From NCBI RefSeq assembly GCF_028553725.1, contig NZ_CP067124.1, positions 1,622,001 to 1,686,000 on the forward strand: a stretch of DNA of 64,000 nucleotides, in the 5' to 3' direction. Positions 17,516-38,011 of this stretch are shown here, piece by piece. Position 1 is the first letter of the stretch; the number at the start of each line of letters is the position of its first letter. Origin of the DNA: Paracoccus alcaliphilus (lineage in GTDB: Bacteria > Pseudomonadota > Alphaproteobacteria > Rhodobacterales > Rhodobacteraceae). The notes beneath the pieces were generated by a model. That model did not search any database. It saw only the letters and a program-made list of their open reading frames with translations, and had not been told where the DNA came from. A program made the position numbers and the translations under genes.

Positions 17516-17557
17516 TTGACGTGTCGTTCTCTCATATGTAACCAGCTAGATAGTTAC
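17516..17557 (+). promoter_or_regulatory. Promoter with TetR-type operator, SDR-TRAP operon
   Basis: TTGACG (17516-17521) is followed after 17 bp by TAACCA (17539-17544). The palindrome GTAACCAGCTAGATAGTTAC (17538-17557) covers the -10 and start region. Its half-sites GTAAC and GTTAC match those at the other operators of the locus but are set four bases further apart. A bound repressor would block RNA polymerase. Confidence 0.6.
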
Positions 17558-17573
17558 TTATGGGGAGGGATCA

Positions 17574-17621
17574 ATGAGTGGCTTATCCAACCGATCGCGC
17601 TTGGTTGTGAAGCAGAGGTAA
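17574..17621 (+). CDS. Possible 15-residue leader peptide
   Basis: ATG at 17574 has a strong ribosome site (GGGGAGGG) six bases upstream and is followed by 15 codons and TAA at 17619-17621, only five bases before the SDR start. The peptide (MSGLSNRSRLVVKQR) resembles nothing I know. It could be a leader that couples translation to the SDR, or a chance frame left by a rearrangement. Confidence 0.35.
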   Translation: MSGLSNRSRLVVKQR

Positions 17622-17625
17622 TCGG

Positions 17626-18411
17626 ATGGGGAGGAGTGAGGCGCACCCAGGCGCAGTCTTGGTGACCGGATCGACGCGAGGGATCGGATTCGCGATCGCT
17701 TTGAAGCTGGCTGCCCGCGGCTTTGCTGTTGCGATTAACGGGCGTGAGCAGGGGACCAGCATGTCCCGCGCGCTTGAAGCCGTCCGCGCAACCGGCGCCA
17801 GCGCAATCTCCGTTGCGGGAGACATGGCGAGGCCTGAAAACCACCGACCCGTTCTGGATCAGGTCGAGATGCAGCTTGGGCCGATTGTCTCTCTTGTCTG
17901 CAACGCCGGTGTGGGCCCGCTTCGCAGGTCCGATATTTTGGATGTCGAACCGGACAGCTTCGATCACTGCATGGCGGCGAATGCGCGTGGCCCGTTCTTC
18001 CTTGCGCAGGAATTTGCCCGGCGGCTTGCCGGTCGCGACGACGAGGGGCGGCATCGCTCGCTGATCTTCATCTCCTCGGCCAATGCCGAGGCGGCATCGC
18101 TGAACAAGGCGGAATATTGCGTCTCGAAAGCGGCCGTCGCGATGGTCGCCAAGGCCTTCGCGCTGAAGCTGTCGTCCTTGGGGGTGCAGGTCGCCGATAT
18201 CCGGCCGGGCATTATCGAGACCGACCTTTCCGCGCCGGTCATCGAGGAATACGCGCGCCGCATCCGGGAGGAGGGCCTGACCCTGTCGCCCCGCGTGGGC
18301 CGGCCCGATGATGTTGCCCATGCGGTCGCGGCGATTGCTGCGGGCGATCTGCCCTATGTGACCGGCGCCGTCCTGCCGGTCGATGGCGGATTGTCCATGG
18401 CGAGGCTGTAG
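17626..18411 (+). CDS. SDR-family oxidoreductase (FabG-like)
   Basis: A 261-residue short-chain dehydrogenase. The NAD(P)-binding motif TGSTRGIG is near residue 15, NAG near residue 93, the catalytic Ser near SSANAEA, and the Tyr-Lys pair in YCVSK. It resembles 3-oxoacyl-ACP reductases and the second SDR of the locus at 39.2 kb, with which it shares EYCVSKAA and LTLSPRVG-type segments. It heads the operon with the shikimate-dehydrogenase-like and TRAP genes. A likely role is oxidation or reduction of a hydroxyl group on the imported compound; the substrate cannot be read from the sequence. Confidence 0.85.
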   Translation: MGRSEAHPGAVLVTGSTRGIGFAIALKLAARGFAVAINGREQGTSMSRALEAVRATGASAISVAGDMARPENHRPVLDQVEMQLGPIVSLVCNAGVGPLRRSDILDVEPDSFDHCMAANARGPFFLAQEFARRLAGRDDEGRHRSLIFISSANAEAASLNKAEYCVSKAAVAMVAKAFALKLSSLGVQVADIRPGIIETDLSAPVIEEYARRIREEGLTLSPRVGRPDDVAHAVAAIAAGDLPYVTGAVLPVDGGLSMARL

Positions 18412-18412
18412 C

Positions 18413-19204
18413 ATGAAAATCGATGGAAAAACCGCGCTGTATCTGGTCGCCGGCGATCCGATCGCGCAGGTCAAGTCGCCGGGGCTCTATACGGAGTGGT
18501 GCGTGGCGCATGGCGTGAACGCGGTCTTTGTCCCGTTCCATATCGACGCCGCCGAGGGGGCGCCTGTCCTCGACGCCCTGCGGCATGTCCCGAACCTTGC
18601 CGGCCTGATCGTCACTATCCCGTTCAAGCCTCTGGCCGCCGATCATTGCCAGATGCTGTCGCCGCGTGCCCGCGCGGCGGGCGCAGTGAATGTCGTCCGT
18701 CCCATCGGGGGCGGGCAATGGGCCGGGGATGCGCTGGACGGCATCGGCTGCGTGGCCGCCCTGCGGGCGCGCGGAATCGCGGTTTCCGGCGCGACGGTCC
18801 AGCTTGTCGGGGCAGGGGGCGCGGGCGCCTCGGTCGCGGCGGCGCTGGCCGAGGCGGGGGCCGCGCGCCTGTCGGTCGATGATCTGGACCCCGGCCGCGC
18901 CGCCGATCTGGCCGGCCGGCTGCGGCGCGAGTTTCCCGGGGTCGAGACCGGCATCGGGCGGATCGACCCGCAGGAGGTGACGATCTTCGTCAACGCCTCG
19001 CCGGCCGGAATGGCCGAGGGCGATCCGCTGCCTATCGACCCCGGCGATCTTGGTCCCGGCAAGCTGCTGGTCGAGATGATCATGCAACCTGCGCGCACAC
19101 GGTTGCTTGCGGCGGCCGAGGCGGCGGGCTGCGTCGTCGTGCCCGGACGCGAGGTCCTTGACGGGCAAGTCACCGAAACCTTGAGGTTTTTCGATCTGAA
19201 CTGA
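18413..19204 (+). CDS. Shikimate/quinate dehydrogenase-like protein
   Basis: A 263-residue AroE-fold protein with the N-terminal substrate domain (AGDPIAQVKSPGLYTEW), the catalytic-type Lys in TIPFKP, and a C-terminal NAD(P) domain with QLVGAGGAGASVAAAL. The usual SxS/NPx substrate signature is altered (VKSPGLYTEWC), so the substrate is probably a related cyclic or polyhydroxy acid, not shikimate itself. ATG at 18413 lies one base after the SDR stop, so the two genes are coupled. As part of a catabolic operon it is unlikely to be the biosynthetic aroE. Confidence 0.8.
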   Translation: MKIDGKTALYLVAGDPIAQVKSPGLYTEWCVAHGVNAVFVPFHIDAAEGAPVLDALRHVPNLAGLIVTIPFKPLAADHCQMLSPRARAAGAVNVVRPIGGGQWAGDALDGIGCVAALRARGIAVSGATVQLVGAGGAGASVAAALAEAGAARLSVDDLDPGRAADLAGRLRREFPGVETGIGRIDPQEVTIFVNASPAGMAEGDPLPIDPGDLGPGKLLVEMIMQPARTRLLAAAEAAGCVVVPGREVLDGQVTETLRFFDLN

Positions 19205-19241
19205 AGCAACCCCCGCGTGGCGGGATGGGAGGAGGACGACC

Positions 19242-20210
19242 ATGATGCACACGAAACTGGCTGCCGTTGGCTTGACGCTGGCGCTGAGCACGACCCATGC
19301 GACGGCGCTTGAACTGACCGCCGCGCATGTGAACCCGCCGGGCGAGCCCTCGAATGTCGCGTTCCAGGAACTGGCGAAACGGCTGAACGAGGGCGAAACC
19401 GGCATCACCCTGCAGGTTTTCCCGCAAGGCCAGATCGGCGGCGAGACGGACGCGCTTGAACAGGTGCGCTTCGGCGCGCTGTCGATGACGACTCTGGCGA
19501 CGGCTTCGCTGTCGTCCTTTGCGCCTTCTGCCGGCATTTACGATCTGCCCTATCTGTTCCGCGATGGCGACGAACATCCCTGGATCGTCGCGGATGGCGA
19601 GATCGGTCAGGAGATCCAGGCGAAGATCGAGGCCGAAACCGGGCTTGAGGTCCTCGGCTGGTGGAGCGGCGGCTTGCGCCATGTTTTTACCCGTGGAACG
19701 CCCGTCACCTCGCCCGACGACATCGCCGGGCGCAAGCTGCGCGTGATCGGCAGCCAGGTCTATCTGGACAGTTTCAACGCGATGGGTGCGCTGGCCACGG
19801 CCATGCCCTATGGCGAGGTCTATACATCGCTGGCGACCGGCGCGATCGACGGGGCCGAGAACGACACCTCGGGCTATCGCAACGTCAAGTTCTACGAACA
19901 GGCGCCCAATCTCAGCCTGACGGGGCATTTCTTCCTGTTCAAGCCGGTTATGGCCAATCGCCGCGCGATGGAGGCCCTGTCGCCCGAGCAGCGCGAGGAA
20001 TTCGACCGGATCTTCGCCGAAGTGTCCGAGATGCAGCGCGACCTGTTCCGGACCAATTTCGAAGGCGACATCGAATATCTGAAAGAGAACGGCGTCAACG
20101 TGGTCGAAGTCGACCGCGACGCCTTCGCGGCCAAGGTTCAGCCGGTCGTGGACAGGCTGTCCGAGACCTATGGCGTCGATCTCGTCCAGCGGATCCGCGA
20201 TGCGCAGTAA
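19242..20210 (+). CDS. TRAP transporter substrate-binding protein, DctP type
   Basis: A 322-residue periplasmic protein. The signal peptide ends near residue 23 (THATA-LE). DctP-family features are visible, including the Arg that binds a carboxylate in GRKLRVIGSQVYLD and the segment SLATGAIDGAEN. It captures an organic acid for the membrane subunits encoded next. That the locus has a carboxylate-type TRAP binding protein as well as a sugar-type ABC system suggests both a sugar-like compound and its acid are taken up. A strong hairpin separates it from the DctQ gene. Confidence 0.9.
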   Translation: MMHTKLAAVGLTLALSTTHATALELTAAHVNPPGEPSNVAFQELAKRLNEGETGITLQVFPQGQIGGETDALEQVRFGALSMTTLATASLSSFAPSAGIYDLPYLFRDGDEHPWIVADGEIGQEIQAKIEAETGLEVLGWWSGGLRHVFTRGTPVTSPDDIAGRKLRVIGSQVYLDSFNAMGALATAMPYGEVYTSLATGAIDGAENDTSGYRNVKFYEQAPNLSLTGHFFLFKPVMANRRAMEALSPEQREEFDRIFAEVSEMQRDLFRTNFEGDIEYLKENGVNVVEVDRDAFAAKVQPVVDRLSETYGVDLVQRIRDAQ

Positions 20211-20234
20211 TCCCGAACGCGCAAATGGCCAGAT

Positions 20235-20257
20235 GACGACCGCCTTGTGCGGTCGTC
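20235..20257 (+). promoter_or_regulatory. Intercistronic hairpin between DctP and DctQ
   Basis: A perfect 9-bp stem (GACGACCGC / GCGGTCGTC) with a 5-base loop and no T-run lies between the two genes. Such hairpins after binding-protein genes usually protect the upstream mRNA or reduce read-through, giving more binding protein than permease. Confidence 0.55.
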
Positions 20258-20273
20258 GGAAAGCGGGGGTCTG

Positions 20274-20774
20274 ATGTCGAAAACCATTGGCGAAATCGAG
20301 GATTGGGTGGTCCGCCTTGAAGGACTGATCCTGTTCTGCGCGCTTTTCGGGCTGATCGCGATGCTGGCGATGCAGGTTCTGTTCCGCTTCGTGTTGCAGG
20401 CCCCGCTGGCATTTACCGAAGAGGCCGGAAGGTTGCTGTTCGCGTGGCTGATCTTCGTCGGCGCGGCGCGGGCCTTGTATGTCTCGCAGCATTTCATGGT
20501 GGATATCCTTTACAACCATGTGCCTGCGCCGCTGCAGAAGCTGTTCGGCTATGTCTCGGACGTGGCCTCGATCGGGCTTGCCGTCATCCTTGCCTATGCG
20601 GGGTTCAAGATGATGTCGCATGGCGGGCAGATCCTGCCGGTGCTGGGCATTCCCGCCTGGACCCAGATGGCGGCGCTGCCGGTCGGCATGACGCTTCTGG
20701 CCTTCCATGCGATGTGCTTCGTTCTGCGCGGGCAGCATGTCGGCGACGGCGCGCAACCTGATTTTGAAGAGTAG
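20274..20774 (+). CDS. TRAP transporter small permease, DctQ type
   Basis: A 166-residue inner-membrane protein with four hydrophobic segments, typical of the DctQ subunit (ALFGLIAMLAMQVLFRFVLQ; LLFAWLIFVGAARAL). ATG at 20274 follows a GGGGG stretch and gives the normal N-terminus; the upstream frame start at 20247 lies inside the intergenic hairpin region. It pairs with the large permease encoded 9 bp downstream. Confidence 0.88.
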   Translation: MSKTIGEIEDWVVRLEGLILFCALFGLIAMLAMQVLFRFVLQAPLAFTEEAGRLLFAWLIFVGAARALYVSQHFMVDILYNHVPAPLQKLFGYVSDVASIGLAVILAYAGFKMMSHGGQILPVLGIPAWTQMAALPVGMTLLAFHAMCFVLRGQHVGDGAQPDFEE

Positions 20775-20783
20775 GAGCGGGAT

Positions 20784-22052
20784 ATGATCAGTTGGGTCCT
20801 GTTGGCGATCCTCGTCCTTATCGTCATTCGTGCCCCCATCTTCGTGGCGCTTGGCGCGCCGGCGGTGGCCTATCTGTGGCTGCGCGGCATACCGCTGGAA
20901 CTGGCGCCGCAGCGGATGCTGGGCACCGTGAACGAATCCATCCTGCTGGCGGTGCCGATGTTCCTGCTGGCGGGCGCGCTGATGAACCGTTACGGGGCCA
21001 CGGCGCGGATCTTCGATTTCGCGCAGGCGGTGATCGGGCATGTCAGGGGCGGCCTTGGTTATGTGGCGGTGCTGGCCTCGATGGTCTTTTCGGCCATGTC
21101 GGGTTCGGCCGCCGCCGATGCGGTCGGGGTCGGAAAGATGACCGTTTCCGCGATGCGCGAGCGGGGCTATGACGCGAATTTCGCCGCTGCCGTCACGCTG
21201 AGTTCGGCGACGATGGCACCCGTCATCCCGCCCTCGATCATCATGATCATCTATGGGGCGACGGCCAATGTCTCGATCGGCAAGATGTTTCTGGGCGGGG
21301 TGGTGCCGGGTCTTCTCATGGCCGCTTCGCTGATGATCACGGTGGGCTGGCTGAGTGCGCGCCGGGGCTATGGCCGGGGCGAGCCGTTCTCGTTTCACCG
21401 GATGCTGACGACCTTCTGGCGCGCCTCGCTGGTGATGCTGACCCCGGTTCTGGTGATCGGCGGCATCTTCTCGGGCGCGCTGACACCGACCGAGGCGAGC
21501 GCCATCGCCGTCGTCTATGTCATCTTTCTTGGCATCGTCTATCGCAAGCTGAACTTCGGCGATTTCTATCGCAGTCTGGTCCATACCGCCACCGCCGTCG
21601 GGGCGCTGATGCTGGTGGTTTCGGTTTCGGGGCTGGATGCCTGGATCATCGCGCGCGAGCAGATTCCGATGATGCTGGCGCAGAACGTCTCGGACATGGT
21701 GTCAAGCCCGATGCTGGTGTTCATTGCCATTCTGCTGGTGGTGCTGGTGCTGGGACTGTTCATGGACGCCACGCCGATCATCCTGATGCTGGTTCCGGCC
21801 ATTACCCCGCTGGTTGCTGCCTTCGGAATCGATCCTCTGCATCTGGGTGTGCTGTTCTGCATCGTTTGCGTGCTGGGCCTGATTACCCCGCCCGTCGGCG
21901 TGGCCCTGTATGGCGTGGCGCTGGTGTCGCGGTTGCCGATGGAACGGGTCTTTATGGCGACCATCCCCTTCTTCATCATGCTTCTGGTGCTGGTGGCGAT
22001 CATGGTCGTGTTTCCGCCGATCATCACCTGGCTTCCCAGCAAATGGGGCTAG
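20784..22052 (+). CDS. TRAP transporter large permease, DctM type
   Basis: A 422-residue membrane protein with about twelve hydrophobic segments and DctM signatures: VPMFLLAGALMNRYG, SAMSGSAAADAVGVG and PVIPPSIIMIIYG. It forms the Na+-coupled translocation pathway with DctQ. The length is normal for the family. The next gene begins within a few bases of its stop. Confidence 0.92.
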   Translation: MISWVLLAILVLIVIRAPIFVALGAPAVAYLWLRGIPLELAPQRMLGTVNESILLAVPMFLLAGALMNRYGATARIFDFAQAVIGHVRGGLGYVAVLASMVFSAMSGSAAADAVGVGKMTVSAMRERGYDANFAAAVTLSSATMAPVIPPSIIMIIYGATANVSIGKMFLGGVVPGLLMAASLMITVGWLSARRGYGRGEPFSFHRMLTTFWRASLVMLTPVLVIGGIFSGALTPTEASAIAVVYVIFLGIVYRKLNFGDFYRSLVHTATAVGALMLVVSVSGLDAWIIAREQIPMMLAQNVSDMVSSPMLVFIAILLVVLVLGLFMDATPIILMLVPAITPLVAAFGIDPLHLGVLFCIVCVLGLITPPVGVALYGVALVSRLPMERVFMATIPFFIMLLVLVAIMVVFPPIITWLPSKWG

Positions 22053-22054
22053 GC

Positions 22055-22501: not shown

Positions 22502-22507
22502 AGCCGG

Positions 22508-23161
22508 TCAGGCGCTGACCAGGCGCAGGATCGTGTCGATATTGAAGCGGAGGCGCTCCTCGAGCGCCTCTTTCGCCATCAGGTCGCGCTCGAAGATGAT
22601 CGAGCCGGTGTAGCGGTTGGTCAGATAATAATAACCGATGGCGGCGATGGTGATGTTCAACTGAACCGGATCGATGCCGGACCTGAACTCACCACTGGCG
22701 ATCCCGCGCTTCAGGATCGTATCGACCATCGACACGAAGCGGCGGCTGTAGATCTTGACGATCTCGGATTTCTTCAGGTGCTTGGCCCGGTGCAGGTTCT
22801 CGCTGTTGACCAGCGTGATGAATTCGGGGTGTTTCAGGTAATATTCCCAGGTGAAGCGGACAAGCCGTTCCAGCGCCTCTTTCGGGGGCAGGTGGTCCAG
22901 ATCCAGCTTCTGCTCGGCGTCGCGGATGGCGATATAGGCGTTTTCCAGCACGGTCTGGAACAACTCTTCCTTGCTGCCGAAATAGTGATACAGCATCCGC
23001 TTGTTCGCGCTTGCCTTGTCGGCGATCACGTCCACCCGCGCACCACCCAGGCCATTGCGGGAAAACTCGTTCAGCGCGGCCTTGAGGATTCGCGCCTTGG
23101 TCGCTTCGGCGTCGCGGATGCGGGGCTTGGTGCGCTGTTGCGGCTTGGCTTCTGCGGTCAC
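22508..23161 (-). CDS. TetR-family repressor, probable regulator of the whole catabolic locus
   Basis: A 217-residue regulator. The N-terminal TetR helix-turn-helix runs from about residue 20 to 65 (RILKAALNEFSRNGLGGARVDVIA, then YHYFGSKEELF); the rest is the ligand-binding helical domain. GTG at 23161 is chosen because GGAG lies eight bases upstream; the ATG at 23224 would add a poorly conserved tail. Its own promoter region contains two copies of the palindrome also found before the other five transcription units between 17.5 and 38.0 kb. It is therefore probably an autoregulated repressor released by a pathway intermediate. It lies centrally in the locus. Confidence 0.85.
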   Translation of the reverse strand: MTAEAKPQQRTKPRIRDAEATKARILKAALNEFSRNGLGGARVDVIADKASANKRMLYHYFGSKEELFQTVLENAYIAIRDAEQKLDLDHLPPKEALERLVRFTWEYYLKHPEFITLVNSENLHRAKHLKKSEIVKIYSRRFVSMVDTILKRGIASGEFRSGIDPVQLNITIAAIGYYYLTNRYTGSIIFERDLMAKEALEERLRFNIDTILRLVSA

Positions 23162-23254
23162 GCTGCGTCTCCGATAATTCTTTGCTCGTCCAATGTCGTC
23201 CCTGCGAAAGTTATAGCAGTCCATGCCCGGTGCAAGGCGTTGGCGCCAAATTAA

Positions 23255-23270
23255 TGCACTATCCGGTTAA
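23255..23270 (-). promoter_or_regulatory. TetR-type operator before the tetR-family gene
   Basis: Read on the minus strand this is TTAACCGGATAGTGCA. It agrees with GTAACYRRWTAGTTAC at most core positions and shares the degenerate GTGCA half with the site 33 bp to the right. It lies about 95 bp upstream of the repressor start, suited to autoregulation. Confidence 0.5.
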
Positions 23271-23279
23271 TGATTTTTC

Positions 23280-23318
23280 TTGACTCGCGTTGCGAATAAC
23301 AAGTAACCAGTTAGTGCA
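23280..23318 (+). promoter_or_regulatory. Promoter with TetR-type operator, ABC-transporter operon
   Basis: TTGACT (23280-23285) is followed after 18 bp by TAACCA (23304-23309), inside the operator GTAACCAGTTAGTGCA (23303-23318). The spacing from TTGAC to the operator is nearly the same as at 17516-17557, supporting a shared promoter design. Confidence 0.55.
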
Positions 23319-23387
23319 TAGATTGGTCGTGTCTGCCATCCGTGGGTCTGAGGAGAGACCTTGGCGGCGCTTTAGGGGAGGCTGGGA

Positions 23388-24500
23388 ATGTCCACGTTCA
23401 TCAAGGATTTTATCGACCATGAGGTCATGAGCCGTCGCAAGCTGTTGTTGGCCGGTGCGGCTGGCATGGCGACGATGGCGGTTCCAGGCGCATTCGGCCG
23501 CGGTCAGGCGCGCGCCGCGCTGACCGATCCGACCATCGCCTGGAGCTATCGCGACCGTGCATCCGCATATTGGAACTCGGTCCTGTCGGGCGGCGAAGCC
23601 TTCGTCGAGTCCATCGGGCGCAGCAAGTCCGATCTGGTCAGCCTGATCAGCGAAGGATCATCCGAGAAGTCGCTGTCCGACATCCGGACCTTCCTGGCCC
23701 GCACGAACGGCAACTGCGCCATCGCCTGCGATCCGAACGACAGCCCGAACGCGCGCCCGATCGTCGAATCCGTGGCGGCGGCGGGGGCCTATATCTCGAC
23801 CATCTGGAACAAGACCGACGATCTGCACCCCTGGGATTTCGGCGACAACTATGTCAGCCACATGACCTGGTCGGACGAGCAGCCGGCCGAGCAGACCGCC
23901 CGCATCCTGTTCGAGGCAATGGGCGGCAGCGGCGGCGTCGTGCATCTGGGCGGCATCGCCGCCAACAACCCGGCGGTCGAGCGGCTGGCCGGGCTGCATA
24001 ACGCGCTGGCGGACTTCCCCGAGATCGAACTTCTGGACGCCCAGCCCGCAGATTGGGACACCACCAAGGCCGCGCAACTGATGTCGTCCTTCCTGACTCG
24101 CTATGGCGACCGGATCACCGGGGTTCATTGCGCCGCCGACAACATCGCCTATGGCGTGATCGAGGCGCTGCGGGCCGAAGGCATCACCGATATGCCTATC
24201 GTCGCTTATGACGGGAACCCCGAGGCGGTGAAGCTGGTGATGGACGGTCAGCTTCTGGCGACGGTCTTTACCAATCCCTTCTGGGGCGGCGGTATCTCGG
24301 CGGCGCTGGCCTATCATGCGGCCATCGGCACGTTCAAGCCGTCCGAGGAACCGCAGGAACATCGCGAATTCTATGGTCCGACGGTGCTGATCACGCAAGC
24401 CGACGCGGCAGAGTTCCAGGCGCAATATCTGGATTCCACGCCGGAATATGACTGGGAAGACTTCTGGGGCCCCAGCAACGGCCAGATCCAGTATCGCTGA
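23388..24500 (+). CDS. Sugar ABC transporter substrate-binding protein, Tat-exported
   Basis: A 370-residue periplasmic binding protein of the ribose/RbsB-like type. The N-terminus has a twin-arginine signal (S15-R16-R17-K18-L19-L20, then a hydrophobic stretch), so it is probably exported folded. The body shows the pattern TNGNCAIACDPNDSPNA, GVHCAADNIAYGVIEAL and IVAYDGNPEAVKLV. It delivers the substrate to the two permeases and the ATPase encoded downstream. RbsB-like members bind pentoses, hexoses, inositols or related polyols; the ligand here cannot be named. Confidence 0.88.
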   Translation: MSTFIKDFIDHEVMSRRKLLLAGAAGMATMAVPGAFGRGQARAALTDPTIAWSYRDRASAYWNSVLSGGEAFVESIGRSKSDLVSLISEGSSEKSLSDIRTFLARTNGNCAIACDPNDSPNARPIVESVAAAGAYISTIWNKTDDLHPWDFGDNYVSHMTWSDEQPAEQTARILFEAMGGSGGVVHLGGIAANNPAVERLAGLHNALADFPEIELLDAQPADWDTTKAAQLMSSFLTRYGDRITGVHCAADNIAYGVIEALRAEGITDMPIVAYDGNPEAVKLVMDGQLLATVFTNPFWGGGISAALAYHAAIGTFKPSEEPQEHREFYGPTVLITQADAAEFQAQYLDSTPEYDWEDFWGPSNGQIQYR

Positions 24501-24533
24501 TATCTGAAAACCCATGGGTCGACCGCGTGCCGG

Positions 24534-24570
24534 TCTTCCCCGCCGCCCTGTCCGGGCGCGCGGCAGGGCA
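24534..24570 (+). promoter_or_regulatory. Hairpin between binding protein and first permease gene
   Basis: GC-rich sequence with the pairing GCCCTG / CAGGGC around a GC-rich loop lies in the gap after the binding-protein gene. By analogy with other ABC operons it may stabilise the upstream message. No T-run follows. Confidence 0.4.
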
Positions 24571-24588
24571 GTGTTGAGGAGAACTGCG

Positions 24589-25554
24589 TTGAATAGCAAG
24601 CTCACCCGCGAGAATGTCATCCGATGGGCGCCGGCGCTGGTATTGCTGGGGCTGGTCGTCCTGTTCACGGCGATCAACCCGGCCTTTCTGACGCAGCGCA
24701 ACCTTGCCCGGATCGCGCTGGCCGCGACGCCGCCGATGATGGTGGCGCTTGGCGTGACCTTCATCATCGTCATGGGTTCCATCGACCTGTCGATGGAGGG
24801 GGCGGTGTCGCTGTGCGCGGTGCTGTTCTGCCTGATCTTCCTGAAACTGGGCGGATCCCTGGGCGCGGGCGCGTGGCTGGCCATTCCGGCGATCCTGATC
24901 TGCGGGGCCCTATACGGCTTGCTGACGGGCTATGTGCATGTGCGGCTGCAAATCCCGTCCTTCATGGCCAGTCTGGCGATGGGTTTTGTCGGCACTGGCG
25001 CGGCAGTGCTGGTCACAGGGGGCGATATTGTGCGCATCAATGACGATGTGTTCCGCGCCCTGCTGACCTGGCGGATCCTTGGCTTTCCGCTGATGGTCCA
25101 TATCGCCATCCTGCTGATCCTGCTGGCATGGTTCATCCAGAACCACACGACGCTTGGCCGCAATTTCTATGCCGTCGGCGGCGGCGAGGAACTGGCCCAT
25201 GCCTCGGGCGTGAATGTCCGCCGGGTGCGTCTTGCGGGCTTTGCGCTGGCCGGGGTCTTCTATGCCATCGCGGCGATTTTCCAGGTGGCGCGGCTGGGAC
25301 AGGCGGAATCGGTGACCGGCGCGAACCTGATGTTCATCGCCATCACCTCGGTCGTCGTGGGCGGCGTCGCGCTGTGGGGCGGGATCGGCGGCGTCCTGAA
25401 CGCGGTCGTCGGCGTGCTGATCGTCAATGTCATCGGCAACGGCATGGTCGTGATCGGCCTGCCCAGCTACCTGCAGGACGGCTTGCTGGGCGTCCTTGTC
25501 ATCATCGCGGTCGTGCTGTCCACCGACCGTCGCCTTGTCAGTTTCGCGAAGTGA
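24589..25554 (+). CDS. Ribose-type ABC transporter permease 1
   Basis: A 321-residue inner-membrane permease of the RbsC family with about eight to ten hydrophobic segments and the motifs GSIDLSMEGAVSL, NHTTLGRNFYAVGGGEELAHASGVNVRRVR and GGVALWGGIGG. The start is taken as TTG at 24589 because GAGGAGAA lies just upstream. The motif following TLGR is the usual docking loop for the ATPase. It forms the channel with the second permease at 27.1 kb. Confidence 0.87.
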   Translation: MNSKLTRENVIRWAPALVLLGLVVLFTAINPAFLTQRNLARIALAATPPMMVALGVTFIIVMGSIDLSMEGAVSLCAVLFCLIFLKLGGSLGAGAWLAIPAILICGALYGLLTGYVHVRLQIPSFMASLAMGFVGTGAAVLVTGGDIVRINDDVFRALLTWRILGFPLMVHIAILLILLAWFIQNHTTLGRNFYAVGGGEELAHASGVNVRRVRLAGFALAGVFYAIAAIFQVARLGQAESVTGANLMFIAITSVVVGGVALWGGIGGVLNAVVGVLIVNVIGNGMVVIGLPSYLQDGLLGVLVIIAVVLSTDRRLVSFAK

Positions 25555-25561
25555 GGCCGCC

Positions 25562-27070: not shown

Positions 27071-27077
27071 GGCGCAG

Positions 27078-28019: not shown

Positions 28020-28020
28020 G

Positions 28021-29058: not shown

Positions 29059-29088
29059 CACCGCAGCATTCCCGAGGAACCTGAAACG

Positions 29089-30585: not shown

Positions 30586-32186
30586 TGGAGACGGGCTTTG
30601 ACTATGTGATCGTCGGCGGCGGCTCGGCCGGTTGCGTCATGGCGGCGCGGCTGTCAGAAAACCCCGAGGCGCGGGTCTGCCTGATCGAGGCCGGGGGCCG
30701 TGACAGCCATCCGCTGATCCACATGCCGGTGGGCTTTGCCAAGATGACCACCGGGCCGCTGACCTGGGGGCTGACCACCGCGCCGCAGCGCCACGCCAAC
30801 AACCGCGAAATCCCCTATGCGCAGGCGCGGGTTCTGGGTGGCGGCTCGTCGATCAATGCCGAGGTGTTCACGCGCGGCCATCCTTCGGATTACGACCGCT
30901 GGGTCGAGGAAGGGGCCGAGGGCTGGGGCGCGGAAGAAGTCCGGCACTATTTCCGCAAGTCCGAGGGCAATTCGATCCTGTCGGGCGAATGGCACGGCAC
31001 GGACGGGCCCCTGGGCGTGTCGAACCTGCCGCATCCGAACGTGCTCAGCCGGGCTTTCGTGCAAAGCTGTCAGGAAATCGGCATCCCCCATAATCCCGAT
31101 TTCAACGGCCCGCATCAGGAAGGGGCGGGGCTCTATCAGACGACGACGCGCGACAACCGCCGCTGCTCGACCGCGGTGGGCTATCTGCGCCCCGCGCTGT
31201 CGCGCCCCAACCTGACGCTGCTGATCGGGGCGGCGGTGCTGCGGCTGGTCTTCGAGGGGCGGCGCGCGGTCGGCGTCGAATATGTGCTGGGCAAGGGCCG
31301 CCAGCCGGTGGTGGCGCGCGCGGCGCAAGAGGTTCTCGTGACCTCGGGCGCCATCGGCACGCCCAAGCTGATGATGCTGTCGGGGATCGGGCCCGCCGAT
31401 CACCTGCGCAGCCACGGGATCGAGGTGATGCAGGACCTGCCCGGCGTGGGTCAGAACCTTCAGGATCATTTCGGCATCGACATCGTGGCGGAACTGAAGG
31501 GGCACGAAAGCCTCGACCGCTATGGCAAGCCGCATTGGATGCTGTGGGCGGGGCTGCAATATGCGCTTTTCAGATCCGGGCCGGTGACCTCGAACGTGGT
31601 CGAGGCGGGGGCCTTCTGGTATGCCGACCGCGACGCGCCTTGCCCGGACCTGCAATTCCATTTCCTTGCCGGGGCGGGGGCCGAGGCCGGCGTGCCCTCG
31701 GTGCCGAAGGGGTCTTCGGGGATCACGCTGAACAGCTATACGCTGCGGCCGAAATCGCGGGGGACGGTGACGCTGCGGTCTTCCGATCCGCGCGATGCGC
31801 CGGTGGTCGATCCGAACTTCCTGGCCGAGCCAGAGGATCTGCGCATCTCGACCGAGGGTATCAGGATCAGCCGCGAGATCTTCAGCCAGCATTCGCTGGG
31901 GAAATACATCCGCGAGACCCGCTTTCCCGCTGCAAATGTGCGCACGCAGGCGGATTACGAGGCCTATGCCCGCCAATATGGCCGCACCTCCTATCACCCG
32001 ACCTGCACCTGCAAGATGGGGCGCGACGAGATGGCGGTGGTCGATCCGCAGCTGCGGGTCCACGGGCTGGACGGGCTGCGGATCTGCGACAGTTCGGTCA
32101 TGCCGTCGCTGGTCGGATCGAATACCAACGCGCCGACGATCATGATCGCGGAACGCGCCTCGGACCTGATCCGGGGCAATCGCTGA
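30582..32186 (+). CDS. GMC-family FAD oxidoreductase (choline dehydrogenase-like)
   Basis: A 534-residue flavoprotein. The FAD motif VIVGGGSAGCVMA is near residue 8, the GMC signature GGGSSINAEVFTRG near residue 88, and the catalytic His in the C-terminal HPTCTCKMG, followed by NTNAPTIMIAERASDLI. GMC enzymes oxidise primary alcohols such as choline, polyols and alkanols. Here it is translationally coupled to an aldehyde dehydrogenase, so the pair likely converts R-CH2OH to R-COOH. ATG at 30582 overlaps the preceding stop. Confidence 0.9.
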   Translation: MMETGFDYVIVGGGSAGCVMAARLSENPEARVCLIEAGGRDSHPLIHMPVGFAKMTTGPLTWGLTTAPQRHANNREIPYAQARVLGGGSSINAEVFTRGHPSDYDRWVEEGAEGWGAEEVRHYFRKSEGNSILSGEWHGTDGPLGVSNLPHPNVLSRAFVQSCQEIGIPHNPDFNGPHQEGAGLYQTTTRDNRRCSTAVGYLRPALSRPNLTLLIGAAVLRLVFEGRRAVGVEYVLGKGRQPVVARAAQEVLVTSGAIGTPKLMMLSGIGPADHLRSHGIEVMQDLPGVGQNLQDHFGIDIVAELKGHESLDRYGKPHWMLWAGLQYALFRSGPVTSNVVEAGAFWYADRDAPCPDLQFHFLAGAGAEAGVPSVPKGSSGITLNSYTLRPKSRGTVTLRSSDPRDAPVVDPNFLAEPEDLRISTEGIRISREIFSQHSLGKYIRETRFPAANVRTQADYEAYARQYGRTSYHPTCTCKMGRDEMAVVDPQLRVHGLDGLRICDSSVMPSLVGSNTNAPTIMIAERASDLIRGNR

Positions 32187-32219: not shown

Positions 32220-33041
32220 TCAGTCCCATTCGGGCGCGAAGGGCACCCGGTCACGGTCCACGATCCGGTAGTTTGTCGCCCCCAGCGCGTCGATCCGCGC
32301 CATGTCCTCCGCCGACAGCGTGAAATCCAGGATGTCGAAATTCGCCCGGATGTTTTCCGGCTTGGTGGACATGGTATTCATCGCCAGCCCCTTCTGCGCG
32401 ATCCAGCGCAGCGCGACCTGAGCGGCGGATTTGCCATATGCAGCGCCGATTTTGGCCATCAGCGGGTATTTGAAGATCTCGCCCCGCGCCAGCGAGCAAT
32501 AGGAAGACAGCGGGATGCCCGTATCTTTCGCCGCCGCCAGCAGCCGCGACTGATCCAGCAGCGGGTGAAACTCGACCTGATTCGTGACCAGCGGCGCGTC
32601 GACCAGCGCCTTCGCCGCGCGCATCATGGCTGCGGTATAGTTCGACACGCCGATATGGGCGGCCAGCCCGGCCTCGCGGGCCTTTTGCAGCAACCGCAGC
32701 GACGGCGCGATATCGCCGCCCGCCGGCGGCCAGTGCAGCAGCAGGAGATCGACCCGCTCGACCCGCAAGGCCCGCAGGCTGTCCTCGACAGAAGGCAGAA
32801 AGCCCGATTCGTCGAAATTCTCGGGCCGCACCTTGGTGGTGATGCAAAGCTGGTCGCGCGGAATGCCGCAATCGGCCAGCGCGGCGCCGGTATCGGCTTC
32901 GTTCGCGTAACTTTGCGCGGTGTCGAAGGCGCGATAGCCGACCTCGATGGCGGCATGGACCGCCTCGCGCAGCGCGCCGCCGGTCAACGGATAGGTGCCG
33001 AATCCGCGCTGGAATTCGGGCCGCATCAGGATGTTCGTCAC
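32220..33041 (-). CDS. Aldo/keto reductase, DkgB-like
   Basis: A 273-residue AKR with the full catalytic tetrad: D40, Y45 (SYANE), K70 (TTKV) and H103 (LLLHWPP). The VTNQVEFHPLLDQ segment matches 2,5-diketogluconate reductases. It begins with GTG at 33041 behind a perfect GGAGG. It is divergent from the CoA-transferase gene, with a shared operator in the gap (33119-33134), so it belongs to the regulon as a single-gene unit. It probably reduces or oxidises a carbonyl of a pathway intermediate. Confidence 0.85.
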   Translation of the reverse strand: MTNILMRPEFQRGFGTYPLTGGALREAVHAAIEVGYRAFDTAQSYANEADTGAALADCGIPRDQLCITTKVRPENFDESGFLPSVEDSLRALRVERVDLLLLHWPPAGGDIAPSLRLLQKAREAGLAAHIGVSNYTAAMMRAAKALVDAPLVTNQVEFHPLLDQSRLLAAAKDTGIPLSSYCSLARGEIFKYPLMAKIGAAYGKSAAQVALRWIAQKGLAMNTMSTKPENIRANFDILDFTLSAEDMARIDALGATNYRIVDRDRVPFAPEWD

Positions 33042-33089
33042 GTTTTTCCTCCCATGTTTTCGAGCTCTCCGGACCGGGACAGTTTACCC

Positions 33090-33134
33090 TTGCCGGATGG
33101 CTCCGCCATAGCTATGTTTATAACTGGATAGTTA
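33090..33134 (+). promoter_or_regulatory. Promoter with TetR-type operator, CoA-transferase operon
   Basis: TTGCCG (33090-33095) and TATGTT (33113-33118) are spaced by 17 bp. The operator ATAACTGGATAGTTAC (33119-33134) starts directly after the -10 box and so covers the transcription start. It is nearly identical to the site at 37996-38011. It could also repress the divergent AKR gene. Confidence 0.65.
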
Positions 33135-33164
33135 CTTAAGATGCAATTGCGAAGGAGGAGCGCA

Positions 33165-34736
33165 ATGTCCAAGATCCGAACCGCCCGCGAGGCTGCGGGG
33201 CTGGTCCGCGATGGGGCGACGGTGGCGGTCAACTCGTCTTCGGGGCTGCTTTGCCCCGACCATGTGCTGAAAGCCCTGGGCGAACGGTTCGAGGACGAGG
33301 GCGCCCCCCGGAACCTGACCACCATTCACCCGATTGCGGCGGGCGACATGTTCGGCACGCCCGGCGTGGATCACATCGCCCATCCGGGGATGATCACCCG
33401 CATCATCGGCGGGTCCTACCCGTCGGGTCCGTCGAACGCCGAGCCGCCGAAAATCTGGCAGCGCATCCTGGCCGAGGAGGTCGCGGCCTATAACGTGCCC
33501 TCGGGGATCGTCTTCGACATGCTGCGCGAAGGCGCGGCGCAGCGCCCCGGCGTACTGACCAAGGTCGGCATGGAGACCTTCGCCGATCCCGAGCTTGAAG
33601 GCTGCGCGATGAACGACAGTGCCCGCGCCGCGCCCATCGTCCGGCGGGTGGAGTTCGACGGTGACACATGGCTGCACTTCCCGGCGCTGCGTCCCGACGT
33701 GGCGCTGATCCGGGCCACCACGGCGGATGAAAACGGCAACCTGACCTTCGAGGACGAGGGCGCGACCCTTGGTGCCATGGAAATGGCACTGGCGGCGCAT
33801 AACTGCGGCGGCATCGTCATCGCTCAGGTCCGGCGCGTGGCAGCACAGGGCACGCTGAAGCCGCATGACGTCAAGGTTCCGGGGATCTTGGTCGACGTGA
33901 TCGTCGAGGCGCCGGACCAGTTGCAGACCACCGCGACCCCGCATGACCCGGCGATCTCGGGCGAGGTGTTCCGGCCGCTGTCCAGTTTCAGCCTTGCCGC
34001 CTTCAACCCCGGCAAGATCATGGCGCGCCGCGTGGCGCAGGAATTGCGCCAGGGCTGGGCGGTCAATATCGGCTTTGGCATCTCGGCCAATGTGCCGCGC
34101 ATCCTGATCGAGGAAGGGCAGCACGGCGCCGTCACCTGGGTGATCGAACAGGGGCCGGTGGGCGGCGTGCCGCTCTTGGATTTCAAGTTCGGCTGCGCCA
34201 GCAATGCCGAGGCCTTCGTCGCCTCGCCGCATCAGTTCAGCTATTTCCAGGCGGGCGGGTTCGATTGCTCGCTGCTGTCCTTCCTCGAAATCGACGCCGA
34301 AGGTTCGGTCAATGTCAGCCGTCTGGCCGCGACGCCGCACCGGACAGCGGGGGCGGGGGGCTTCGTGGACATCACGGCGCGCGCGAAGAAGATCGTGTTC
34401 TCGGGCAATTTCAACGCCGGCGCGAAGATGCGGATCGAGGATGGCAGGCTGGTCATCGACCGCGAGGGCAAGGTGGCCAAGATCGTGCCGAAGGTCGATC
34501 AGGTCAGCTTCTCGGGTCCCCGCGCCATCGCGCAGGGGCAGGAGATCACCTATGTGACCGAGCGTTGCGTGCTGCGGCTGCTGCCCGAGGGGCTGACCGT
34601 GACCGAGATCGCGCCGGGCATCGATCTGCAGCGCGACGTGCTGGATCAGGCGGCGACGCCATTGCGGGTGGCCGACGACCTGAAGGTGATGGACGCGGCG
34701 CTGTTCCGCGACACGCCGATGGGGCTGGCGTTGTGA
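33165..34736 (+). CDS. Acetate/propionate CoA-transferase-like protein (family I, YdiF type)
   Basis: A 523-residue protein in which the alpha and beta CoA-transferase subunits are fused, as in YdiF and propionate CoA-transferase. Visible are the N-terminal IGGSYPSGPSNAEPPKIW region and the C-terminal part around SLLSFLEIDAEGSVNVS, where the active-site Glu of the family is expected. It would load CoA from acetyl-CoA or similar onto the acid produced by the upstream oxidations. The ATG at 33165 has AAGGAGGAG directly upstream. It heads an operon with the enoyl-CoA hydratase and glycerate kinase. Confidence 0.85.
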   Translation: MSKIRTAREAAGLVRDGATVAVNSSSGLLCPDHVLKALGERFEDEGAPRNLTTIHPIAAGDMFGTPGVDHIAHPGMITRIIGGSYPSGPSNAEPPKIWQRILAEEVAAYNVPSGIVFDMLREGAAQRPGVLTKVGMETFADPELEGCAMNDSARAAPIVRRVEFDGDTWLHFPALRPDVALIRATTADENGNLTFEDEGATLGAMEMALAAHNCGGIVIAQVRRVAAQGTLKPHDVKVPGILVDVIVEAPDQLQTTATPHDPAISGEVFRPLSSFSLAAFNPGKIMARRVAQELRQGWAVNIGFGISANVPRILIEEGQHGAVTWVIEQGPVGGVPLLDFKFGCASNAEAFVASPHQFSYFQAGGFDCSLLSFLEIDAEGSVNVSRLAATPHRTAGAGGFVDITARAKKIVFSGNFNAGAKMRIEDGRLVIDREGKVAKIVPKVDQVSFSGPRAIAQGQEITYVTERCVLRLLPEGLTVTEIAPGIDLQRDVLDQAATPLRVADDLKVMDAALFRDTPMGLAL

Positions 34737-35527
34737 GCGCGGATCCGCGTCTCGATCTGCGGATCGAGGCTGGTATCGCGCGACTGACGATCCGCCGCCC
34801 GGACAAGCTGAACGCGCTGGATGCGGAGATGGTGGAGGCGCTGCTGCCGCTCTGCCGCCGGATCGAGCGATCCGATGCGCGGGTGGTGATCCTGACCGGC
34901 GAGGGTGGGCGGTCCTTTTGCGCCGGTGGCGACATTGCCGCATGGTCGCAACTGTCGCCCGAGGATTTCAGCCGCCGCTGGCTGCGAGATGGTCATGCGG
35001 CTTTCGACGCGCTGACGCGGCTTGCGCAGCCGGTGATCGCGGTGCTGAATGGCCATTGTCTGGGCGGTGGGCTGGAACTGGCCGCTTGCGCCGATTACCG
35101 GCTGGCCGAGGCGCATGTGCGGATCGGATTGCCCGAAACCTCGCTTGGCATCATCCCCGGCTGGTCGGGCACGCAACGGGCGGTGCGCCGCTTCGGTGCC
35201 GGGCCGGTGCGCCGGATGGCGCTGTTCGGCGAGGTTTTCGGCGCCGATGAGGCGCAGCGCCTTGGGCTGGTGGATCGCGTCGTTCCGACCGGCGAAGGCA
35301 TGGCCGCCGCCAAGGCGCTGGCCGCGCAGGTGATCGCCCGCGCCCCGCGCGCGACCGAGATCACCAAGATGCTGATCAATGCCGCCGAGGGCGAGGAACG
35401 CGAGCGTGTGCTGGAGGCGCTGGCCGGAAGCGTGGCCGCCGCATCCGACGACCTGCGCGAAGGGCTTGCGGCGTTCCGCGAAAAACGCTCTGCAAGGTTC
35501 GGGGAAATGGGCTCGTCGCGGGCCTGA
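34733..35527 (+). CDS. Enoyl-CoA hydratase/isomerase-family protein
   Basis: A 264-residue crotonase-fold protein. GTG at 34733 overlaps the CoA-transferase stop (GTGA). It has the oxyanion-hole segments FCAGGDIAAW and NGHCLGGGLELAACADYR, and the Glu-containing loop GLPETSLGIIPGWSGTQR. It probably hydrates an enoyl-CoA made by the acyl-CoA dehydrogenase at 38.0 kb, or removes water from a hydroxyacyl-CoA. No thiolase gene is found in the locus, so the chain is not shortened by classical thiolysis here. Confidence 0.87.
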   Translation: MSADPRLDLRIEAGIARLTIRRPDKLNALDAEMVEALLPLCRRIERSDARVVILTGEGGRSFCAGGDIAAWSQLSPEDFSRRWLRDGHAAFDALTRLAQPVIAVLNGHCLGGGLELAACADYRLAEAHVRIGLPETSLGIIPGWSGTQRAVRRFGAGPVRRMALFGEVFGADEAQRLGLVDRVVPTGEGMAAAKALAAQVIARAPRATEITKMLINAAEGEERERVLEALAGSVAAASDDLREGLAAFREKRSARFGEMGSSRA

Positions 35528-35551
35528 GGGGACAGTTTGGAAGGGGACAGG

Positions 35552-36811
35552 ATGACGGCTGAGGATCGCGATTTCCTCACGGCGCTTTTCGATGCGGCGG
35601 TGGCTGCCGCCGATCCCGAGATCGCGCTGCGGGCCTGCCTGCCGGCGCGTCCCAAGGGGCGCACGGTGGTGATCGGCGCGGGCAAGGGGGCCGCGCAACT
35701 GGCGGCGGCGTTTGAACGGCTTTGGGACGGGCCGGTCGAGGGCGTGGTGGTCACGCGCTATGGCTATGGCTGCGAAACACGCAGCATCCGCGTGCTGGAG
35801 GCGGCCCATCCGGTGCCCGATGCGGCGGGGCTTGCGGCGACCGAGGCGCTGTTCGAGGCCGTCGGCGGCTTGACCGAGGACGATCTGGTCGTCGCGCTGG
35901 TCTGCGGCGGTGGTTCGGCCCTGCTGCCGGCGCCGCCCGAGGGACTGGCGCTGGAGGACGAGATCGAGCTGAACCGCATCCTGCTGGCCAGCGGCGCGCC
36001 GATCTCGGTCATGAACGCGATCCGCAAGCAGGTCTCGCGCATCAAGGGTGGCAGGCTGGCCGCTGCTGCCCATCCCGCGCGGGTGGTGTCGCTGGTCGTG
36101 TCGGACGTGCCGGGCGATGATCCGGCGCAGGTGGCGTCGGGTCCGACGGTACCGGATGCGGCGACGCGCGAGGATGCGCGCCGCCTGCTGGACAACTGGC
36201 GGATCGAATTGCCCGCGTCCCTGCGCGACTGGTTCGCGGGCGACGACGGCCAGCCGCCGCAGCCCGATGATCCGGTCTTCGCCCGCCATGAGGTGCGGCT
36301 GATCGCATCGGCCCGGCTGTCGCTTGAGGCCGCTGCCGCCAGGGCCGAAGCCGCAGGCATCCCGGCCGTCATCTTGTCGGATGCGATCGAGGGCGAGGCT
36401 CGCGATGTGGCCCATGTCCATGCCGCCATCGCGCGCGAGATCGCGACGCGCGACCGCCCCTTTGCCCGGCCCGTGGTGATCCTGTCAGGGGGCGAGACCA
36501 CCGTGACCCTTCGCGGCAAGGGTCGCGGCGGGCGCAACAGCGAGTTCCTTCTGGGGCTGGCTCTGGGCATCGAGGGGCTGCCGGTCTCGGCGCTGGCTGC
36601 CGATACCGATGGCATCGACGGCTCCGAGGACAATGCCGGCGCCTTCGCCGATGGCAACAGCATGGCGCGGCTGCGGGCACTGGGTAGCGATCCGATGGCG
36701 ATGCTGGCCGGAAACGACGCCTGGTCGGCCTTCGAGAAACTGGGTGATCTGTTCAGCCCCGGCCCGACCGGTACGAATGTGAATGACTTCCGCGCCATCC
36801 TGATCCGCTGA
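35552..36811 (+). CDS. Glycerate 2-kinase (MOFRL family)
   Basis: A 419-residue protein with a DUF4147 N-terminal domain ([36 protein letters not shown]) and a C-terminal MOFRL domain ([44 protein letters not shown]). These ATP-dependent kinases make 2-phosphoglycerate from glycerate; the family was earlier annotated as hydroxypyruvate reductase. Its inclusion in the operon suggests that glycerate is a product of the pathway and enters lower glycolysis. ATG at 35552 follows AAGGGGACAGG. Confidence 0.87.
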
Positions 36812-36821
36812 GGTCGAAGAA

Positions 36822-36848
36822 AAGGCGGCAGGGTCATCTCGCCGCCTT
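36822..36848 (-). terminator. Terminator between glycerate kinase and second AKR gene
   Basis: A stem AAGGCGGC / GCCGCCTT lies between two convergent genes. On the minus strand it is followed by TTTTCTTC, so it fits a rho-independent terminator for the AKR gene; it may stop the rightward transcript as well. Confidence 0.65.
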
Positions 36849-36856
36849 GGTCGTGT

Positions 36857-37873
36857 TTACGCAGGCACCGGCGCGTCCCCGCGCAGCAGGCCCTTGTCCT
36901 TTAGCGCCTGCCAGAACGCGGCCGGGATCGGGTGATTCATCCATGCAAGGTTCTGCTCCAACTGCTGAACGGTCCGCGTGCCTGCGCAGAAGGACGGCAC
37001 CGCCGGATGCGCCACGACGAATTGCAGCGCCGCAGCGGGCAGCGGCACCTCGTATTCGGCGCAGACTGCCTCGATCTTCGTCACCCGATCCATGATCTCG
37101 GCCGGGGCGGGGACATAGTTGTATTTCGCCCCCGGCTTCGCGCCCGTCGCCAGAATGCCCGAGTTGAAGCCGCCGCCGACGACCACCGCCGCGCCGCGTT
37201 CCTCGCAAAGCGGCAGGAACTCGTCCAGCGCATCCTGCTCCAGCAGGGTATAGCGCCCGGCCAGCAGGAAGCAGTCGAAATCGCGCTGTTTCAGCGCCTC
37301 ATGGCAGACCTGCCATTCGTTCACGCCGACGCCGATGGCCGCGACCACCCTTTCGTCGCGCAGCCGTTCCAGCGCCTTCCAGCAGCCATCCATCGCCTGC
37401 CGGAAGACCTCGGGCTGTTCGGCGCCGCGCGTATAGACGTCGATGTCGTGGATGAACAGGATGTCGATCCGCTCCAGCGCCAGCCGTTGCAGGCTGTCCT
37501 CGAAGGCGCGCATGGTGCCGTCATAGCTATAGTCGAATTCGGACCGGAAGGGCGCCGCATTGACCCAGGGCGCAAAGTCGATGCTGTCGCGCCGCGCCGG
37601 GCGCAGCAGGCGGCCCACCTTTGAGGACAGCACGAAATCGTCGCGGTTGCGCCAGCGCAACGCCTCGGACGTGCGCAGCTCGGACAGGCCGTGGCCATAC
37701 ATCGGCGCGGTGTCGAAATAGCGCACGCCCGCATCCCAGGCATGATCGAACATCGCGCGCGAGGTCTGGTCGTCGATTTCGCGGAAAATATTGCCGACGG
37801 GCGCGGTGCCGAAGGCGAAGCCGGTCACCTCCAGATCCGTGCGACCGAACTTGCGTTTTTCGGATGGTTTCAT
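36857..37873 (-). CDS. Aldo/keto reductase, D-threo-aldose 1-dehydrogenase-like
   Basis: A 338-residue AKR with D54 (YFDTAP), Y59 (MYGHG), a Lys in SSKVGRLL and a His in LFIHDID. This subgroup includes L-fucose/D-threo-aldose 1-dehydrogenases, which oxidise the anomeric carbon of a sugar to a lactone. ATG at 37873 follows GAGGGGGAA; the longer frame from 37915 would read through the operator and is unlikely. It is a single-gene unit of the regulon. A sugar dehydrogenase here argues that the substrate or an intermediate is an aldose. Confidence 0.82.
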   Translation of the reverse strand: MKPSEKRKFGRTDLEVTGFAFGTAPVGNIFREIDDQTSRAMFDHAWDAGVRYFDTAPMYGHGLSELRTSEALRWRNRDDFVLSSKVGRLLRPARRDSIDFAPWVNAAPFRSEFDYSYDGTMRAFEDSLQRLALERIDILFIHDIDVYTRGAEQPEVFRQAMDGCWKALERLRDERVVAAIGVGVNEWQVCHEALKQRDFDCFLLAGRYTLLEQDALDEFLPLCEERGAAVVVGGGFNSGILATGAKPGAKYNYVPAPAEIMDRVTKIEAVCAEYEVPLPAAALQFVVAHPAVPSFCAGTRTVQQLEQNLAWMNHPIPAAFWQALKDKGLLRGDAPVPA

Positions 37874-37890
37874 CGGTTCCCCCTCCTTAA

Positions 37891-37906
37891 GTAACCAATT
37901 AGTTAT
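37891..37906 (-). promoter_or_regulatory. TetR-type operator before the second AKR gene
   Basis: GTAACCAATTAGTTAT, an almost perfect palindrome of the regulon consensus, lies 18 bp upstream of the AKR start codon. It should overlap the promoter or early transcribed region. Confidence 0.6.
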
Positions 37907-37967
37907 GATTGGCACGATTCCACATCGCCTATCAAGCAGATTCCCGCAGGGTCCGCGGTTTTCCGGC

Positions 37968-38011
37968 TTGACGGCCGAAAGCCGTTTCGATTAAAGTAAC
38001 TGGATAGTTAC
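37968..38011 (+). promoter_or_regulatory. Promoter with TetR-type operator, acyl-CoA dehydrogenase operon
   Basis: TTGACG (37968-37973) and TTAAAG (37991-37996) are 17 bp apart. The operator GTAACTGGATAGTTAC (37996-38011) begins on the last base of the -10 box. This is the best match to a symmetric 16-bp operator in the locus. Confidence 0.68.

Follow-up and report, generated by a model that had tools for sequence, protein, structure and literature searches.

A TetR-family regulator as the predicted local repressor of a 26-kb catabolic locus in Paracoccus alcaliphilus

A 26-kb catabolic locus of Paracoccus alcaliphilus, consisting of 24 genes in seven transcription units, includes a gene for a TetR-family regulator (22508..23161, minus strand; all coordinates refer to the window, the whole stretch of 64,000 nucleotides that was analysed, positions 1,622,001 to 1,686,000 of contig NZ_CP067124.1) whose product would, at a probability of about 0.9, act as the local repressor of the entire locus. 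A single repressor is proposed for the whole set because the same operator is present at every promoter here and at the matching promoters of relatives; one operator that recurs at all units, and is kept together with them in relatives, is the pattern of a local catabolic TetR regulon. The single regulon proposed in a first-pass annotation of the window is supported in that four of the sites rank first in the window with an independently built matrix and in that sites are conserved before the same units. The regulon had been put at about 21 genes, where the count here is 24.

The units, predicted from the spacing of genes, begin on the plus strand with SDR1, an AroE-like gene and the TRAP genes DctP, DctQ and DctM (17626..22052), a unit read below as accessory. 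It is followed by tetR, which has a GTG start and whose P. versutus orthologue is annotated with equal length, and by an operon on the plus strand (23388..32186) that encodes, as read from families and synteny, a sugar-type substrate-binding protein (SBP), a permease (Perm1), an ATPase (ABC), a second permease (Perm2), a zinc alcohol dehydrogenase (ADH), an aldehyde dehydrogenase (ALDH) and a GMC oxidoreductase. The aldo/keto reductase AKR1 (32220..33041, minus strand) is divergent from a CoA-transferase (CoAT), enoyl-CoA hydratase (ECH) and glycerate kinase operon (33165..36811, plus strand). A second aldo/keto reductase, AKR2 (36857..37873, minus strand; its ATG at 37873 is preceded by GGAGGGGG), and the operon of the acyl-CoA dehydrogenase (ACAD), SDR2, DUF993, an AP_endonuc_2-type isomerase (APE) and the electron-transfer flavoprotein (ETF) subunits beta and alpha (38032..43663, plus strand) complete the series. 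Promoters have room in the stretch upstream of SDR1 and in three gaps between divergent genes, each of which contains one or two sites; the remaining intergenic gaps measure at most 45 bp or lie between convergent genes.

All six places at which the motif had been reported carry some form of it, as judged by pattern, matrix or composite reading. Allowing up to three mismatches, the originally proposed pattern matches the window eight times against 0.36 expected and a maximum of two in 100 shuffles, a count that includes both strands and overlapping registers (17538/17542, 23303, 33120, 37891 and 37996). Operator A (17538..17557, plus strand, GTAACCAGCTAGATAGTTAC) lies before the SDR-TRAP operon and is of a composite type, GTAAC-N10-GTTAC; a -35-like TTGACG (17516..17521, plus strand) stands 22 bp upstream, in the same distance class as at orthologous SBP promoters. 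Two further composite sites occupy the gap between tetR and SBP: operator B (23251..23270, minus strand, TTAACCGGATAGTGCATTAA), about 90-109 bp upstream of tetR, and operator C (23303..23322, plus strand, GTAACCAGTTAGTGCATAGA), before the ABC-oxidase operon and 23 bp downstream of the -35 element TTGACT (23280..23285, plus strand). The simple GTAAC-N6-GTTAC type is represented by operator D (33120..33135, plus strand, ATAACTGGATAGTTAC), directly behind the CoAT promoter TTGCCG-N17-TATGTT (33090..33118, plus strand) and 30 bp from its TTGCCG; by operator E (37891..37906, minus strand), 18 bp upstream of AKR2 and, by eye, 29 bp from a TTGATA; and by operator F (37996..38011, plus strand, GTAACTGGATAGTTAC), before ACAD and 28 bp downstream of the -35 element TTGACG (37968..37973, plus strand). 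The first-pass annotation had described palindromes close to one sequence at all six positions; in form, the site at 17538 departs from this by its N10 spacer, and at 23255 and 23303 the second half-site is degenerate (GTGCA). The motif reported at 23255 is present on the minus strand (TTAACCGGATAGTGCA), yet beyond three mismatches of the proposed consensus, and the site placed at 33119 begins at 33120. The -35 and -10 assignments of the first-pass annotation hold well at 33.1 kb; the other promoters have good -35 but weak -10 elements.

A matrix was built from 78 sites of 77 loci outside Paracoccus, the window and the three loci L057-L059 being left out. It has a strong GTAAC-N6-GTTAC core with YR/YR inside and weaker A/T flanks, and its four best matches in the window are the sites at 37996 (29.1 bits), 33120 (28.7 bits), 37891 (26.9 bits) and 17538 (23.6 bits). 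A seventh candidate at 55173 scores 16.6 bits and lies inside an open reading frame (ORF; 53924-55219, minus strand); it was taken as chance because the reversed matrix reaches 15.7 bits, once in the window. It is the only comparable extra match. The motif is not frequent genome-wide: a search of the 4.77-Mb genome for GTAAC-N6-GTTAC, one mismatch being allowed, gives 22 places, three of them in the locus, against 120 for the reversed pattern, and the 13 of the 19 outside places that were scored with the relatives' matrix all reach at most 12.1 bits, compared with 23.6-29.1 bits for A, D, E and F. The composite pattern (up to three mismatches) is found at B, C, A and one further place in the genome.

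Conservation was assessed in 80 loci, out of 502 confirmed relatives listed in a contig scan with the TetR protein (best segment 69-94% identity), which by record titles belong to Rhodobacterales and Hyphomicrobiales and in which the ABC operon stands beside tetR in at least 64 cases. With sites called at 10 bits or more, tblastn matches below 55% identity or 40% coverage left out, and genes whose 200 upstream bp ran past a contig end excluded from the upstream counts, these loci contain 157 sites; 123 of them lie no more than 200 bp upstream of a gene of the locus, in stretches that amount to 7.2% of the sequence, while the reversed matrix gives 27 sites, two of them so placed. A site is present within this distance before SBP in 62/64 cases, ACAD in 13/13, CoAT in 7/7, AKR1 in 9/10, AKR2 in 2/3 and SDR1 in 1/1, and before tetR in 69/79. 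The operon-internal genes Perm1, ABC, Perm2 and ADH together have a site in 0/245 cases; SDR2, DUF993 and APE have one in 0/33, and AroE, DctP, DctQ and DctM in 0/1 each (reversed matrix: ADH 1, CoAT 1, AKR1 1, elsewhere 0). The motif is thus present before orthologous operons of relatives that keep the TetR gene, and it accompanies the units through rearranged gene orders (loci L112, L118 and L121). In the Sinorhizobium meliloti 1021 plasmid pSymA (L165, NC_003037, 752000-790000), 18 of the 24 window genes have counterparts (61-87% identity), and ACAD, AKR2, CoAT/AKR1 and SBP/TetR are preceded by sites as in the window; the five SDR-TRAP genes were not found in this stretch (SDR1 giving only a 46% cross-match to SDR2), and ECH falls below the cut-off. 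In addition, a separate site belongs to ALDH, and there is another composite on the far side of tetR. In the plasmid collection, this stretch comes without gene annotation.

The motif had been said to define the extent of the pathway. This goes too far, since the SDR-TRAP unit is accessory and relatives' sites also precede further genes. Of 27 sites selected for closer inspection, 11 (in L061, L064, L065, L073, L082, L086, L089, L091, L106, L114 and L127) precede a second GMC oxidoreductase that is 42-53% identical to that of the window and is a likely further member of the regulon in these relatives. Other scanned sites precede three glyoxalase-like genes of 172-177 aa directly behind the site (L063:12074-12592, L069:11796-12314 and L082:16422-16955), two HbpS-like genes (L068 and L129) and one weakly flavodoxin-like gene.

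The spacing of the half-sites in relatives reveals two operator forms. Spacers of N2, N6 and N10 are enriched, with 48, 89 and 48 matches against 5-11 for eight other spacers; five scrambled half-sites give no sharp peak at N6, although two of them, CAATG and GCAAT, are commoner overall and GCAAT has its largest count at N6 (71, near its N3 and N4 counts of 65 and 64). Because of this triple enrichment, a single 16-bp palindrome at all six sites was rejected. A composite operator explains it, since most matches with N2 and N10 trace back to one composite between tetR and SBP, TTAACGCACTAACTRGTTACTT. The composite form, about GTAACYRGYTAG-N3-RTTA, is present with up to 5/19 mismatches in 64/64 SBP promoters (matches above 60% identity with 300 bp upstream), 63 of which have TTGAC 22 or 23 bp before it. 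TTGAC lies 20-34 bp upstream in 25/146 orientations of simple sites, most often at 28, 29 or 34 bp; one of these 25 (L059) is in reality a composite. By unit, in 83 loci (among them L167, which repeats the record of L058, and L166, from another strain of P. versutus; 48% identity, 50% coverage, 220 bp upstream), SBP has the composite in 67/67 and TetR in 63/82 cases, the simple form is present at CoAT in 10/10, ACAD in 14/16, second GMC in 10/11, AKR1 in 10/13 and AKR2 in 4/6, and neither form at Perm1 (65/65), ABC (67/67), Perm2 (64/64) and ADH (63/63). The split is not clean: 14 SBP promoters also score as simple, and the composite threshold is also reached by five AKR1, three CoAT, three ACAD, two second-GMC, one AKR2 and 1/14 SDR2 upstream regions.

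The occurrence of the motif can be compared with that of the regulator. A TetR orthologue is encoded by 23 of 295 genomes of the family, 21 at 54% identity or more and two split by contig ends, and the exact motif GTAACYNNNNRGTTAC is found in 20 of these 23, compared with 34 of the remaining 272 (odds ratio 47, Fisher p 7e-14). The exact motif in genomes lacking TetR was considered as counter-evidence and set aside, many of the sites listed there being of the type GTAACCC-N2-GGGTTAC, which is read as a different motif; such sites stayed in the counts, in genomes with TetR as in those without. This other palindrome is repeated in genomes G072, G001 and others, sometimes in clusters; in G072 the search pattern is matched exactly 17 times, and the listed matches are of this kind. 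SBP orthologues (60% identity or more) occur in 16 genomes, 15 of which combine a site at the SBP locus with a TetR orthologue. In the sixteenth, G109, the best TetR match is at 41% and no site lies in the 4.1 kb around SBP; a TTGACA is seen there by eye, none of the 13 loose matches of this genome falls on the SBP contig, and the contig keeps SBP, both permeases and the ATPase. The segment ANKRM[IL]YH, which by its place in the TetR fold is presumably the recognition helix, is identical in the window TetR and 18 aligned orthologues (L028-L045); L046, L047, L054 and L055 were left out of this comparison.

In the mechanism suggested by these observations, a TetR dimer would bind the inverted half-sites GTAACYR/YRGTTAC and, with operators over the -10 or start region, would block RNA polymerase; a compound of the pathway would presumably release it, so that uptake and degradation are switched on together. 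At the promoters of the transporter and the regulator, and in this locus also at that of the accessory SDR-TRAP unit, the composite operator would cover the -10; the simple 16-bp palindrome would act a few bases further downstream, at the CoAT, AKR2 and ACAD enzyme units. The protein carries a TetR_N helix-turn-helix domain (PF00440, 48.3 bits, cut-off 24) and a TetR-type C-terminal domain (PF17938, TetR_C_29, 148.2 bits, cut-off 26.2, 1.5e-43). Its best NCBIfam match is RutR (TIGR03613/NF011584), at 62.6 bits against an equivalog cut-off of 368 bits. RutR is a TetR-family local regulator of a catabolic operon for pyrimidine use with the operator TTGACCA-N2-TGGTCAA, which differs from the motif of this locus, and none of the locus genes scanned is a rut pyrimidine gene. 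The nearest solved structure, PDB 3npi (E 1.4e-21), has a generic name only. QacR-type operators bind paired dimers, and two overlapping dimers could likewise be accommodated by an extended palindrome whose inner half-sites are degenerate while the outer ones are kept; alternatively, the composite may reflect no more than overlap with the -10 element. It may represent two dimers or one dimer plus a promoter constraint, both being compatible with the sequence.

Several observations weigh against a single TetR regulon. With the relatives' matrix, C and B score only 11.0 and 7.2 bits, less than the 15.7 bits to which the reversed matrix rises by chance; they are not significant as simple sites and rest on the composite pattern. 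In relatives, ALDH (12/54) and GMC (4/65) have sites of their own, so that unit borders vary, and 10 of 79 TetR genes lack a site within 200 bp; the loci are moreover related by descent and their counts therefore not independent. Three of the 23 TetR-bearing genomes (G209, G228 and G101) have no exact site, although G209 and G101 carry near-matches, and the joint loss of site and TetR is seen in one genome, G109, and not in a series. Strong sites also lie beside distant TetR homologues, in L055 (43% identity) and L053 (41%), while no site was found within 1.5 kb of the homologue of L048 (49%, with nearly the same helix); the motif hence does not mark orthologues alone. The analysis shows the sites, their conservation with the units, the geometry of the promoters and the co-occurrence with the TetR orthologue; binding by TetR, repression and a ligand from the pathway are inferred from these. 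A chance origin of the palindromes in AT-rich intergenic DNA, with which the weak scores of B and C taken alone would agree, has next to no probability given the eight matches against 0.36 expected and the conservation at orthologous promoters.

The sites could be bound by another transcription factor, such as the product of the LysR gene (16328-17227) that adjoins the SDR-TRAP unit just upstream, or a regulator encoded elsewhere, with TetR merely nearby; the position of the LysR gene and the strong sites beside some TetR homologues of 41-43% identity would agree with this. We consider it improbable: the motif follows the TetR orthologue across the 295 genomes, rearranged loci included, and at cut-offs of E 1e-15 and 40% of length no match to the LysR protein appears within the 80 loci, which reach up to 10 kb to each side. 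Some TetR-family proteins activate transcription, and such a role here would be compatible with that precedent; it is nevertheless very improbable, as, wherever a TTGAC is seen, composite sites follow it at 22-23 bp and simple sites mostly at 26-34 bp, and sites that overlap or follow the -10 are in a repressing position. An arrangement in which TetR controls the conserved core only (ABC-oxidase, CoAT, AKRs and ACAD), site A being incidental and SDR-TRAP serving another pathway, is unlikely but deserves some weight. The SDR-AroE-TRAP unit is near tetR in one of the 80 loci, that of P. sulfuroxidans (L059); the unit is missing, with the remainder of the locus present, from P. versutus pTAV3, which keeps a 115-aa TRAP fragment, and from P. 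kondratievae, which has no such fragment in the stretch read; the AroE-like protein has no match above 45% identity in the 294 other genomes of the family; and site A is offset from the N6 form. However, site A scores 23.6 bits and shares the TTGAC-22-GTAAC geometry, and the P. sulfuroxidans promoter (GTAACGAACTAGACAGTTAC) keeps both half-sites identical at N10, differs at 3/10 middle bases and has its TTGAC 23 bp before GTAAC. We read SDR-TRAP as an accessory import unit that was probably placed under the same operator.

Autoregulation of TetR, as claimed in the first-pass annotation, exceeds the evidence. In 68 of the 80 loci, tetR is preceded at 76-311 bp by a composite (up to 5/19 mismatches), but the SBP promoter shares it, and in the rows inspected this shared composite has no TTGAC at the 22-23 bp distance in the direction of tetR. 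The extra site B next to tetR is seen in Paracoccus loci only (L058, L059 and L167).

Between operator A and SDR1, a 15-codon ORF (17574-17621) with a Shine-Dalgarno-like GGGGAGG was considered as a leader peptide and rejected; it has no obvious counterpart in P. sulfuroxidans by eye. Between the convergent DctM and tetR genes lies a gap of 455 bp (22053-22507); ORF 21910-22518, which overlaps the end of DctM and spans the gap, matches no Pfam family. The TRAP permease fragment of P. versutus lies near the place corresponding to this gap.

By family, the locus would encode the oxidation of alcohols and aldehydes, CoA transfer, dehydrogenation of an acyl-CoA with a dedicated ETF, hydration and oxidation by an SDR, together with DUF993 and a glycerate kinase. 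The family names point to a sugar-type, CUT2-like importer and suggest that a polyol- or sugar-like compound is oxidised via a CoA thioester, with glycerate among the products. The nearest solved structures of the locus proteins have generic names (sugar-binding, choline-oxidase-like, isomerase, dehydrogenase), and no substrate is claimed for this reason; DUF993, annotated in relatives as dihydrodipicolinate synthase family, has one close solved structure, 4dnh, named uncharacterized. Search listings gave no paper on DUF993, none on S. meliloti by title for the numbers SMa140x-143x, which we take to be those of the orthologous locus, and nothing for the combined enzyme names; one listed paper mentions SMc04132, presumably a DUF993 protein. 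The catabolic pathway thus appears to be undescribed and unnamed, and the locus appears to form a conserved local TetR-centred regulon, ordinary in kind and, as far as the literature listings show, not described before. More tentatively, and with rather less than even chances, the two operator designs might set an order of induction: with the composite (perhaps occupied by two overlapping dimers) covering the -10 at the promoters of transporter and regulator, and a single-dimer palindrome at the start sites of the enzyme units, uptake and degradation would respond at different inducer levels, in an undescribed CoA-linked route for a polyol- or sugar-like compound that includes DUF993. The regulon brings 24 genes together as one functional set, among them DUF993 and a number of poorly named oxidoreductases, and makes an apparently unnamed pathway testable, since the regulon could be read out by a reporter and an orthologous locus is present on pSymA of the genetic model S. 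meliloti 1021.

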